From Tardiphaga sp. vice304 (GTDB lineage Bacteria; Pseudomonadota; Alphaproteobacteria; Rhizobiales; Xanthobacteraceae): DNA of 64,000 nt. The notes beneath the pieces are model-generated. The model had not been told where the DNA came from. It searched no databases and saw only the letters and a program-made list of their open reading frames with translations. A program made the translations under genes and the position numbers. Location: the NCBI RefSeq assembly GCF_007018905.1, contig NZ_CP041402.1:310001-374000 (forward strand), in the 5' to 3' direction. Shown in pieces: positions 4,143-9,681 of the stretch (position 1 is its first letter; every line of letters begins with the position of its first letter).

Positions 4143-5198
4143 ATGACCGTGCAGAACACTGGATCGACGTCGTTGTCAGCTCTGTCAGCGCATTCGCGCC
4201 GCAGCGTGTTACTTGGAACGGGCGCGCTCGGTCTGGCTGCGGCGTTGCCGATGCCGGCAATCGCGCAGGGTAGGACCAAGGTAATCGTCTCCGAGGCGAT
4301 CCATATCGCGCTTTATACGCCGCTTTACGTTGCGATGCGCAAGGAACTGTTCGCCAGGCAGGGGCTCGATGTCGAACTCTCGACGGCGGGCGGTATCGCG
4401 GTCCCGGTGTCGGTGCTGCTGGCCAATCGAGCGCAATTCGCGCTGACCGGCACAGGCATGTCGGTGAATTCGACACTGGAAGGCGGCAAGATGAAGGTGA
4501 TCGGCAAGGTCGCCGGCGGCGTCTCGCTGTTCGCCATCGCCAAACCGGGCTTGAAGATCAACTCGCTCGCCGATCTCAAGGGCAAGACCATCGCCACGCT
4601 GCGCTTCCCATCCAACACCATCTCGACGCCGACTTATCTGATGCGCGGCATCGGCGGCTTCGACCCGAAGGAAGCCGGCGTCAATTTTCTTGAACTGCCA
4701 CCCGGTGCGCAGGCTGCCGCCGTCAAGGACGGACGCGCCGACCTCGCGATCGTATTCGACTGGGACGCCAGCATCGGCGTCACGCAGTTCGGACTAGAAG
4801 TGGTTTTTTCCTTCGCAGACATCCTCGGGCCGATCGCGTTCTCGTCGATCTTTGTCACCGAGCAATATGCCAAGTCTAACGGCGATACGGTGCAAAAATT
4901 CATGAACGGTCTGGCCGCGGCGATGAAGCTCATGCAGTCCGATCCGAACGTCTTCGAAGAGGTCAGCCGGCTGGAGTTTCCCTCTGTCGCCCCCGAAGTG
5001 GTCAAGCTCGGCGCGAAAAACTTTATGAACACGAAGAACGTGATGCCGCGCAACCCGATCATCACCAAGGAAGATTGGGACGCGATTATGAAGCATGAAA
5101 GCGGCGCTGGCACGCTCAAGAAAACGTTGCCTTACGAGGACATGGTGGACAACAGCTTCGCTACCAAGGCCACCACCGAATTCGGCATGCCGGGCTGA
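4143..5198 (+). CDS. ABC transporter substrate-binding protein, NMT1/TauA type
   Basis: About 351 residues from ATG 4143, chosen because AGGAGAG at 4133-4139 sits just upstream; a TTG at 4128 is in frame but lacks this. A twin-arginine-like signal (SRRSVLLGTGALGLAAALP) ends near the AIAQG cleavage region, so the protein is periplasmic. The mature part begins KVIVSEAIHIALYTPLYVAMRKELF, the NMT1/THI5-like periplasmic binding fold that serves TauABC/SsuABC/pyrimidine importers. It is the first gene of the operon that continues with RutB- and RutC-like enzymes, a permease, a RutD-like hydrolase and an ATPase. A pyrimidine-derived or ureido ligand is inferred from context, not shown. Confidence 0.85.
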   Translation: MTVQNTGSTSLSALSAHSRRSVLLGTGALGLAAALPMPAIAQGRTKVIVSEAIHIALYTPLYVAMRKELFARQGLDVELSTAGGIAVPVSVLLANRAQFALTGTGMSVNSTLEGGKMKVIGKVAGGVSLFAIAKPGLKINSLADLKGKTIATLRFPSNTISTPTYLMRGIGGFDPKEAGVNFLELPPGAQAAAVKDGRADLAIVFDWDASIGVTQFGLEVVFSFADILGPIAFSSIFVTEQYAKSNGDTVQKFMNGLAAAMKLMQSDPNVFEEVSRLEFPSVAPEVVKLGAKNFMNTKNVMPRNPIITKEDWDAIMKHESGAGTLKKTLPYEDMVDNSFATKATTEFGMPG

Positions 5199-5221
5199 TC
5201 GGCCTCACATTGAATGCGAAC

Positions 5222-5953
5222 ATGAGTGCCAACATGAGTTCGATGCCTAAACTGCCGCAATCGCTACCACGTCGCGACAGCTACTTGATGCTGTCCGCCA
5301 GCCCAGAAGAATTTCCGCTATCGGCGAATGAGACCGCGCTGATCGTCGTCGATATGCAGAATGCCTACGCCTCACCGGGCGGCTATCTCGATCTCGCCGG
5401 CTTCGATGTGACGGGCGCTAAACCAGTCATATCAGCCGTTGCGGAAACTATCGAGATTTCTCGCAAGCTCGGCTTCACAATCGTCTTTTTTCAGAACGGC
5501 TGGGATAGCGCCAAACAGGAAGCCGGAACGCCGGACTCGCCGAATTGGTGGAAGTCGAACGCGTTGAAGACGATGCGCGCGCAGCCCGAACTCGACGGCA
5601 AGCTGATCACGCGGGGCACGTGGGATTACGACCTCGTCGACAAGCTCAAGCCGATGCCGGGCGATCTCGTGCTCGGCAAACCGCGCTACAGCGGTTTTGC
5701 CGGGACGCAACTGGACGCCATGCTGCGCGCACGTCGAATCCGAAACCTCGTCGTGGTCGGCGTCGCCACCAATGTCTGCGTCGAATCCACCATTCGCGAC
5801 GCTTACTTTCTCGAATACTTCTCGATCATGGTGAAAGACGCCACCTTGCAGGCCGGACCACCCGCCTTGCAGGAGGCGACGATCTACAACGTCGAAACCT
5901 TCTTCGGCTGGACCACCACCGTCAGCGAGTTGCGCAGCCTCACCAACCGCTAA
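5222..5953 (+). CDS. rutB: RutB-like ureidoacrylate amidohydrolase (isochorismatase family)
   Basis: The isochorismatase-like cysteine hydrolase fold carries the expected Asp-Lys-Cys set: Asp in ALIVVDMQNAY, Lys in LVLGKPRYSGF, Cys in ATNVCVESTIRD. Whole blocks match what I remember of RutB rather than general isochorismatases: NAYASPGGYLDLAGFDV, FFQNGWD, KSNALKTMR, TWDYDLVDKL, FLEYF and ETFFGW. RutB splits ureidoacrylate to aminoacrylate, CO2 and ammonia. It lies 23 bp after the binding-protein gene and 71 bp before the RutC-like gene. The start is uncertain: TTG 5210, ATG 5222, 5234 or 5243, none with a strong ribosome site. The family call is firm; the substrate here may be a relative of ureidoacrylate. 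Confidence 0.85.
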   Translation: MSANMSSMPKLPQSLPRRDSYLMLSASPEEFPLSANETALIVVDMQNAYASPGGYLDLAGFDVTGAKPVISAVAETIEISRKLGFTIVFFQNGWDSAKQEAGTPDSPNWWKSNALKTMRAQPELDGKLITRGTWDYDLVDKLKPMPGDLVLGKPRYSGFAGTQLDAMLRARRIRNLVVVGVATNVCVESTIRDAYFLEYFSIMVKDATLQAGPPALQEATIYNVETFFGWTTTVSELRSLTNR

Positions 5954-6024
5954 TGGATTTATCGGCCCCAACACAATCTCAAGACAACGATAAAAACAGC
6001 GACAACGTTCACAAGGATCTCGAC

Positions 6025-8073: not shown

Positions 8074-8870
8074 TGGCCGATGCTGCAATGACTGCGCACG
8101 ACGTGCTGACCGCACGCGAGGTCGGCATGATCTTCAACGCCGACAGTACGAATCCCGTTCGCGCGCTCGGCAATATTTCGTTCGGATTGCGCCCGCGTGA
8201 AGTGCTGGCAATCGTCGGTCCGTCGGGCTGCGGCAAGACGACCTTATTCAACATCATCGCCGGCCTCATTACGCCCAGCCTCGGCAGCGTGTCAGTCAAC
8301 GGCGTACAGGTCGCCGGGGCCAAAGGGCAAGTCGGTTACATGCTGCAAAAAGACATGCTGCTGCCCTGGCGCAGCGTGCTGGACAATGTGACGCTGGGCC
8401 TCGAAGTGCGCGGCGTCGGTCGTAAGGAATCCGAAGAAATTGCGCACCGGTTGATCAACGCCTATGGCCTTGGTGGATTCGAAAATGCCAAGCCCGCGAC
8501 ACTGTCCGGCGGCATGCGTCAGCGCGTCGCCTTTATGCGAACGCTGGCGTTCGATCCGGATGTCATACTGCTCGACGAGCCGTTCTCTGCGCTGGATTTC
8601 CAGACCCGCCTTCTCTTGCAGGGCGAAGTTCAGCGCATCATCCGCGAGCGCGGCAAAAGCGTCATCCTCGTCACGCATGACATCGGCGAGGCGATCACCA
8701 TGGCTGACCGCATCGTCGTCATGACCAATCGGCCTGCCACCGTGAAGAGCGTGCACACAATCGAACTGTCGGACTCCGAGCGCGACCCTGTGACGATCCG
8801 GACCAATGCGCTTTTCAACGATTACTTCAACCGGATCTGGGGCGAGCTGGAAATTCGCCGCGAGGTCTGA
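8073..8870 (+). CDS. ABC transporter ATP-binding protein, TauB/SsuB type
   Basis: 265 residues from ATG 8073, overlapping the previous stop. The canonical nucleotide-binding domain has Walker A GPSGCGKT at 49-56, Q-loop region LQKDMLLPW near 91-99, signature LSGGMRQR from residue 144, Walker B VILLDEP at 164-170 and the H-loop in LVTHD. This set matches the nitrate/taurine/sulfonate/NMT1 importer ATPases. It closes the six-gene operon; the next gene, on the opposite strand, ends 8 bp further on. Confidence 0.93.
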   Translation: MADAAMTAHDVLTAREVGMIFNADSTNPVRALGNISFGLRPREVLAIVGPSGCGKTTLFNIIAGLITPSLGSVSVNGVQVAGAKGQVGYMLQKDMLLPWRSVLDNVTLGLEVRGVGRKESEEIAHRLINAYGLGGFENAKPATLSGGMRQRVAFMRTLAFDPDVILLDEPFSALDFQTRLLLQGEVQRIIRERGKSVILVTHDIGEAITMADRIVVMTNRPATVKSVHTIELSDSERDPVTIRTNALFNDYFNRIWGELEIRREV

Positions 8871-8877
8871 CGGGGCG

Positions 8878-9681
8878 TTACCCGCCCGCGCCGGCGATAA
8901 AATCGAGTAGCATCGTATTGAAGATGTCCGGCGTCACAGCAGTAAAGGCATGCGCGCCGTAATCGACCTGGCGCAGTCGCGCACCCGGAATAGCGGCCGC
9001 GAGTTCGCGTGTGAGATAGGCTGGCACCAGCGCGTCGTCCGTCGCGGTGGTGATTAAAGTCGGCGTGGTGATGCCGGCCAGCCGCTCGCCGGGATCGAAC
9101 GCGAGAAACATCTCGATTCGCTTGTTGATGGTGTCGGCAGGCGGAAAATGCGCCAGAATCTGAGCCTCGTCCGCATCCAGCTTCGCTTCGTTTTCTGCGA
9201 TCCATTGCGGCGGAAACAAAAACAATGGTTGCGCGCGAACATAAGCGCGTGGCCCGGACTGTTTCAAGATTTCACGGCGAACCTCAAAGCAGCGCAGCAG
9301 ATGAGCATCCGCGCGGCCCCAGCCGTTCACCACCGTCACGCTGCACAGCCGCTCCGGCTGGGTCATCGCCAGTTCGAGCCCGACGATGCCGCCGACCGCG
9401 TGACCAACCACATGCGCGGCCTTGACGCCGACCCGATCCAGCACGCAAACCATATCGTCCGCCATGCCTGCGATGGTGCGGACGCTATCATTGCCGTTGC
9501 GGCTTCGTGCTGTGCCGACATGATCGTACACGATCACCGTATGGCGCTCGCTCAGCGTCGCGATCTGCGGCGTCCAGAACGAGCTGTTGCCTCCCATGCC
9601 GGCGGACATCAGGATCGGCGTACCTTCGCCGTAACTTTCATAGAATATTTCCGCGCCGGCTGCAGCGCTCGCGTAGGGCAT
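8878..9681 (-). CDS. RutD-like alpha/beta hydrolase, Ala-elbow copy
   Basis: 267 residues from ATG 9681 (GGAG with about 7 bp spacing); the frame is open further upstream to 9915, but similarity begins at MPYASAAAGAEIFYE. It resembles the copy at 7231 and RutD in several blocks (YDHVGTARSR, VTVVNGWGRADAHLLRCFEVRREIL, YVRAQPLFLFPPQWI, FNTMLLDFI). The nucleophile elbow reads GHAVG, with Ala95 where an active hydrolase has Ser; the acid (TATDDALVP) and a C-terminal His (YGAHAF) remain. It is convergent with the ABC operon and separated by 7 bp. Either catalysis differs from a classical triad, as I recall for some RutD proteins, or the protein has another role. Confidence 0.72.
   Translation of the reverse strand: MPYASAAAGAEIFYESYGEGTPILMSAGMGGNSSFWTPQIATLSERHTVIVYDHVGTARSRNGNDSVRTIAGMADDMVCVLDRVGVKAAHVVGHAVGGIVGLELAMTQPERLCSVTVVNGWGRADAHLLRCFEVRREILKQSGPRAYVRAQPLFLFPPQWIAENEAKLDADEAQILAHFPPADTINKRIEMFLAFDPGERLAGITTPTLITTATDDALVPAYLTRELAAAIPGARLRQVDYGAHAFTAVTPDIFNTMLLDFIAGAGG

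Follow-up and report, generated by a model that had tools for sequence, protein, structure and literature searches.

The closest described system to the locus considered here is the Rut pathway of E. coli (rutABCDEFG). According to the accessible parts of the published descriptions, RutA converts uracil to 3-ureidoacrylate and thymine to 2-methylureidoacrylate (PMC7662398), RutB yields carbamate and 3-aminoacrylate, and RutC converts 3-aminoacrylate to malonate semialdehyde (PMC8113886). The DNA that we analyzed is a stretch of 64,000 nucleotides from Tardiphaga sp. vice304 (contig NZ_CP041402.1, positions 310,001 to 374,000 of the forward strand), referred to below as the window and numbered from its first letter. 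It contains an operon in which genes for homologs of RutB, RutC and RutD are interleaved with genes for an ATP-binding cassette (ABC) importer. We conclude that this operon is a real and conserved form of the lower Rut pathway that lacks RutA and is tied to its own importer. As to its substrate, we put at about even the chance that the operon encodes a pathway for taking up an open-chain ureido-enamine acid and releasing its nitrogen; the simplest candidates are 3-ureidoacrylate and a methyl homologue of it.

The six-gene unit occupies positions 4143-8870 on the plus strand. It begins with a gene for an NMT1/THI5-like substrate-binding protein (SBP; 4143-5198; PF09084, 74.2 bits, above the gathering score of 20.5), followed by genes for a RutB-like putative ureidoacrylate amidohydrolase (5222-5953; TIGR03614, 345.4, narrowly below the cut-off of 377.95), a RutC-like putative 3-aminoacrylate deaminase (6034-6414; TIGR03610, 187.4, above the cut-off of 169.1), the importer permease (6414-7199; PF00528, 102.6 bits), a RutD-family alpha/beta hydrolase, RutD1 (7231-8073; TIGR03611, 223.9, narrowly below the cut-off of 238.5), and the importer ATPase (8073-8870; PF00005, 110.1 bits). 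A seventh gene on the minus strand (8878-9681), convergent to the operon, encodes a second RutD, RutD2, that passes the same RutD cut-off with 293.7. All seven reading frames are open. TGATG overlaps join two pairs of genes (6412-6416 and 8071-8075), and an alternative start of rutC at 5953 would create an additional TAATG overlap with rutB. The first-pass annotation of this DNA had described a six-gene unit with two TGATG overlaps, enzyme genes interleaved with transporter genes, and a convergent second RutD-like gene, and every one of these features is present.

The gene order is strongly conserved. Relatives were collected in a scan of a genome collection with a RutB alignment, from which we took the 80 loci nearest to the window RutB among at least 583, a sample that is biased toward that protein, and in searches with an SBP alignment, in which at most five candidates were scored per genome. 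In all, 121 loci were annotated jointly with a simple, crude, purpose-made gene caller. Removal of duplicates reduced 58 importer loci to 48 distinct ones, 41 of which reach 5 kb or more beyond the SBP gene in each direction. The order SBP-RutB-RutC-permease-RutD-ATPase, whose comparison across orthologous operons the first-pass annotation had proposed, is found in 44 of the 48. Three of the others (L019, L022 and L153) are interrupted by contig ends, and the fourth (L165) is rearranged and lacks RutB. We use "linked" to mean within the stretch examined, about 8-10 kb per side at best. In that sense rutA is linked to none of the 58 importer loci and the importer to none of the 57 rutA loci; the remaining 6 of the 121 loci have neither, and their contigs end less than 2 kb downstream of rutB. 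The arrangement that had been named as one that would speak against a RutA-free operon, a rutA linked to it in most relatives, is thus not what these stretches contain.

Of 391 genomes from the host family, 42 contain the SBP, compared with 1 of 385 genomes sampled across the class and 2 of 398 sampled across the phylum (the host is counted in each). The operon is therefore common in the host family, and evenly drawn samples from beyond that family seldom contain it. Sequence matches alone place SBP relatives with 52-75% identity in Hyphomonadaceae, Aquabacter, Xanthobacter and Pararobbsia. No SBP match was found in 72,556 plasmid records (tblastn, 1e-40).

The host genome, a single contig of 5,788,709 bp, has no RutA: in a profile search of the whole genome the best match reached 75.3 bits (cut-off 498.3), and the protein that gave it is an alkanesulfonate monooxygenase (566.1 bits). 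All five luciferase-like proteins of the host were rejected as RutA, the best of them being SsuD. SsuD and an adjacent flavin reductase at 5.76 Mb, at first taken for RutA and RutF, were excluded by their scores. Among five flavin-reductase (PF01613) matches tested as RutF, the best reached 92.7 (cut-off 254.75) and two had no match at 0.001. No RutG is linked to the operon; the sole PF00860 permease match in the genome is distant, at 4144872, and no search was made with the RutG model itself. The first-pass claim that the operon stands without RutA/RutF or a linked RutG is borne out by these searches.

RutA is also missing from most other genomes that carry the SBP. In a profile search it was absent above the cut-off genome-wide in 37 of the 42 carriers, and in 33 of the 38 that are at least 90% complete. 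The five carriers with RutA all belong to the host genus; in four of them RutA and the operon are about 199-213 kb apart, and in the fifth they are on separate contigs. One further genome (G523) has a RutA match below the cut-off, at 167.7 bits. In a separate search of 17 genomes, RutA passed in three Tardiphaga-type genomes (one of which, NFR13, is filed as Bradyrhizobium) and in two rutA controls, and no match exceeded the cut-off in seven Bradyrhizobium and five other carriers. Hydantoinase/dihydropyrimidinase matches above the cut-off occur in 24 of the 42 carriers, the host included, and none lies inside the fetched operon stretches (coordinates compared by eye). The 18 carriers with no such match are all among the 37 without RutA. 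Because RutA above the cut-off is absent in 37 of 42 carriers and hydantoinase also in 18, a substrate that is already open-chain is favored over one opened by a known, unlinked enzyme. The first-pass idea, that the imported compound is already open or is opened elsewhere in the genome, gains support from these counts. The distribution suggests that carriers of the six-gene set, in most cases without RutA, live on an already opened, nitrogen-rich fragment of other origin.

The two enzymes at the center of the proposed pathway keep the expected catalytic residues. The solved structure nearest to the RutB-like protein is E. coli RutB (8bkd), and D44, K153 and C186 of the window protein align with its triad; we take Asp-Lys-Cys to be the catalytic residues of RutB. 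As a broader measure we used 98 alignment columns with 97% invariance or more across 57 rutA-linked RutBs. On average, these columns are kept at 98.6% in importer loci of type C (27 rows, Bradyrhizobium and Tardiphaga among them), at 86.7% in type B (8 rows, including the window, itself at 87.8%) and at 81.5% in type A (12 rows). Three of the host's four other isochorismatases keep 37.4% on average. All 47 importer-linked rows retain N92, W94, E100, W134, Y136 and Y156, and S112 is replaced by G in 11 of the 12 type A rows; some of these seven positions presumably line the RutB pocket. In the RutC-like protein, the arginine of the PAR motif (Arg101) is conserved in an alignment with 3v4d and, from that alignment, is taken to be the counterpart of Arg104 of E. 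coli RutC. According to the accessible text, E. coli RutC altered at Arg104 no longer deaminates 3-aminoacrylate (PMC8113886).

The RutD proteins are of two types. A hydrolase of the RutD fold would carry a Ser-Asp-His triad. RutD rows could be obtained for 39 of the 57 rutA loci, and in the alignment all 39 have Ala-Asp-His: the serine nucleophile is gone, and Asp and His are kept. E. coli RutD (3v48) likewise has GHALG at the nucleophile site. The in-operon RutDs of the importer loci comprise 27 of the alanine type and 18 of the serine type (with Asn for Asp in L157). In the window, RutD1 is of the serine type (Ser93-Asp213-His242), and RutD2, with Ala95 at the nucleophile position, is of the alanine type found in rutA-linked RutDs. 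At 10 of the 18 serine-type loci, and also in the window, the operon has an alanine-type RutD next to it; none was found in the stretch examined at the other 8. Two of these neighboring proteins are 73% identical to RutD2. Because the pairing of a serine-type with an alanine-type RutD recurs, RutD2 is likely part of the system. In two host-genus genomes, a gene resembling NADPH:quinone reductase lies between the ATPase gene and the alanine-type rutD (L168, 12647-13744; L169, 12710-13690).

Taken together, these genes point to a simple sequence of steps. The SBP, permease and ATPase would import an acid with an open-chain carbamoyl-enamine group, (Z)-3-ureidoacrylate or 2-methylureidoacrylate. 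RutB would strip off the carbamoyl group as carbamate, which would decay to NH3 and CO2, and RutC would convert the 3-aminoacrylate to malonate semialdehyde, freeing a second NH3. The RutD proteins would have a supporting role, with the serine-type RutD1 perhaps serving as a genuine hydrolase that acts on a side group of the substrate. Malonate semialdehyde could then be converted to acetyl-CoA by a CoA-acylating semialdehyde dehydrogenase encoded by the host. The host has a TIGR01722 semialdehyde dehydrogenase above the cut-off, as do 40 of the 42 carrier genomes counted with it, and we assume that this family accepts malonate semialdehyde. The importer would most simply deliver ureidoacrylate because RutB and RutC act on ureidoacrylate and then on 3-aminoacrylate. 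Ureidopropionate is disfavored: RutC needs the enamine that RutB produces, and we infer that a saturated ureido acid would leave it with no substrate. We also speculate, tentatively and with rather less confidence than an even chance, that this is a form of cross-feeding, in which RutA-free bacteria import ureidoacrylate that comes from other cells or from abiotic sources and mineralize its nitrogen, and in which loci of types A and B add a serine-type RutD, next to the RutD that lacks a nucleophile, to deal with a modified ureidoacrylate.

Other substrates have to be weighed against ureidoacrylate. The importer might take up an intact pyrimidine (uracil, thymine or a derivative), with an unlinked ring opener other than RutA supplying RutB. 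RutB, RutC and RutD all belong to pyrimidine-breakdown families, the fold neighbors of the SBP include binders of HMP/FAMP and thiamin, five host-genus genomes have RutA elsewhere, and a gene for an FAD monooxygenase (PF01494) lies downstream of some operons. However, the same SBP fold also binds sulfonates, nitrate and bicarbonate, the known openers are missing from many carriers as described above, and beyond the six genes and the regulator no neighbor is recurrent across carrier types (20 neighbors were scanned against family libraries, so that an unrecognized opener could still exist). We therefore regard uptake of an intact pyrimidine as unlikely. Only a little less unlikely, in our judgment, is a substrate that is some other carbamoyl- or acyl-enamine acid, from which the serine-type RutD1 would first remove an ester, lactone or acyl group, with types A and B differing from type C in the compound used. 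This could account for the departure of the window RutB, and still more of type A RutBs, from the invariant positions, for the division of in-operon RutDs into serine and alanine types, and for L165, which has RutD1 and RutC without RutB. It fits less well with the six RutB positions that never vary among importer-linked rows and with a gene order that is equal in all types.

The SBP does bear a generic likeness to components such as SsuA and TauA, and the operon could in principle be an ordinary taurine- or sulfonate-type importer that merely adjoins scavenging enzymes of unrelated use. We consider this highly improbable: the enzyme genes are interleaved with the transporter genes in a fixed order in 44 of 48 loci, and the SBP scores far below the cut-offs for both SsuA_fam (74.6 bits; cut-off 163.5) and TauA (27.5 bits; cut-off 304.25). 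Its identification as a taurine or sulfonate importer was rejected on these two scores. The SBP has a twin-arginine-like signal, with R19 and R20 conserved in at least 90% of the alignment.

Several observations weigh against import of ureidoacrylate by a dedicated Rut-type operon. The ligand of the SBP is deduced indirectly: no solved binding protein is close to it (phmmer, 0.001), its best profile match among structures (3qsl, 52 bits) has no named ligand, and its fold neighbors, which bind pyrimidines, sulfonates, nitrate, bicarbonate and PQQ, do not settle the matter. The window RutB is changed at 12 of the 98 invariant positions (H209 to L, for example), and the changes in types A and B mean that their RutB substrate may be something other than ureidoacrylate. 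In a tree of 104 RutBs, one that carries long-branch warnings, the importer-linked rows do not form one clade; type C groups with rutA-linked RutBs, and types A and B lie apart. L165 has the importer, a RutD1-like protein and RutC in a different order, with no RutB in its 18-kb stretch. Five of 17 loci, all from Bradyrhizobium, have the PF01494 gene downstream of the operon. With two hydantoinase matches above the cut-off, the host may have a reductive way of opening pyrimidines. E. coli does not need RutC or RutD to use uridine, according to the accessible text of PMC8113886. Lastly, ureidoacrylate is not known to have an abundant source in nature. In the accessible portions of the two papers, ureidoacrylic acid is reported as a sheep rumen metabolite (PMC12736088) and, by mass, in broilers (PMC6873883), annotations that may include isomers.

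The types also differ in the importer itself. Mean identity between types is 49-53% for the SBP, 58-60% for the permease and 60-63% for the ATPase. In the SBP tree, type C forms a single clade with full support, type B is set apart by a single, weakly supported branch, and L157 and L165 divide type A. A shared importer combined with RutB, RutC and RutD genes of mixed descent would fit both the RutB and the SBP trees. In L165, genes of the GST and MFS transporter types come after the operon. Recurrent neighbors of the Bradyrhizobium operons are genes for DUF2157, GDYXXLXY, TctC, PF01494 and an aminotransferase-type regulator, each in at most 6 of 17 loci, and we do not count them as parts of the system. 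The PF01494 gene is accompanied by an adjacent LysR-type gene, on the strand opposite to the operon and 3' of it, in L042, L048, L054, L071 and L075.

A LysR-type regulator gene lies immediately 5' of the SBP gene in 40 of 41 stretches from the host family, the exception being L155. In the window, this gene has been split by an insertion sequence (IS), an exact 940-bp repeat on the minus strand (2141-3080; transposase 2175-2999), that is inserted at about codon 6. The 15 nucleotides to its left (2126-2140, plus strand) match the opening codons of the regulator gene in the nearest relative, L019, as judged by eye against the regulator starts of L019, L020, L129 and L130. The remainder, LysR2 (3081-3972, plus strand), has the HTH_1 and LysR_substrate domains and is 81-91% identical to the regulators of the nearest operons. 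With its regulator split in this way, the operon may be misregulated in the window strain. A second, identical IS copy lies in direct orientation at 11695-12634, 9554 bp away, with the operon between the two. A composite transposon as carrier of the operon was rejected because the left copy sits within the regulator gene, whose first 15 nucleotides fall outside the IS pair. Between the operon and the right copy is an open reading frame (10292-10915) that appears by eye to be transposase-like.

The gap between regulator and operon contains a non-coding block of 43 nucleotides (3987-4029, plus strand) that is conserved when the upstream regions of the window and of five type B loci are aligned. 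From its conservation and position, we regard it as a candidate promoter/operator. Pattern scans of positions 3900-9900 found no promoter or terminator site on the operon strand and four promoter-like sites on the opposite strand (1.9 expected), and no Rfam match above the gathering score was found in window positions 1-16000. Elsewhere on the host contig, a hydantoinase gene (273923-275068; 410.6 bits over positions 74-454 of 454) lies about 7 kb from an isochorismatase-family gene (281873-282457). These two genes, 28-36 kb before the window, are possibly a separate ureide cluster.

We found no description of this operon in the accessible literature, for which coverage of subscription papers was thin. 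It is not described in the accessible parts of a genomics paper on the Rid family (PMC4433059) or of a paper on nitrifiers (PMC12625717), and a Bradyrhizobium paper (PMC5017801) is, in its accessible part, unrelated to it. If our reading is correct, the lower half of the Rut pathway can stand by itself as a module for nutrient uptake, and ureidoacrylate, or a compound close to it, would be a nutrient that passes between soil cells. Transport of ureidoacrylate between cells was likewise not described in the accessible literature. The operon would also be a setting in which to test the roles of RutC and RutD, given that both are dispensable in E. coli, and the split between serine and alanine types offers a direct route to the question of RutD function. 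There could be consequences for annotation as well: pyrimidine use predicted from RutA would miss the carriers, and uracil use predicted from RutB would be wrongly credited to them.

The operon resembles several known systems and differs from each. Its NMT1 binding protein, binding-protein-dependent permease and ATPase are those of the NMT1/THI5-type ABC importers, such as SsuABC and TauABC, and we take ThiXYZ to be another importer of this type that is comparable to it. In contrast to SsuABC and TauABC, its SBP falls below their cut-offs and is encoded in an operon with pyrimidine-breakdown enzymes. The BiuH biuret/cyanuric acid pathway of Rhizobium leguminosarum similarly uses an isochorismatase-family amidohydrolase on a ureido compound, with its partner AtzF not nearby (PMC5806882). 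However, the window RutB was rejected as a biuret hydrolase (NF050097, 119.6; cut-off 370), and the accessible part of that paper mentions no RutC or RutD partners for BiuH. The closest likeness is to the E. coli Rut pathway, in the homologs of RutB, RutC and RutD, the RutB triad and the RutC arginine. Unlike E. coli, the host lacks RutA and RutF and has no linked RutG, and its importer genes are interleaved with the enzyme genes. In addition, E. coli has RutR (PMC8113886, accessible part), whereas the window operon has a LysR-type regulator upstream and an extra RutD of the serine type.

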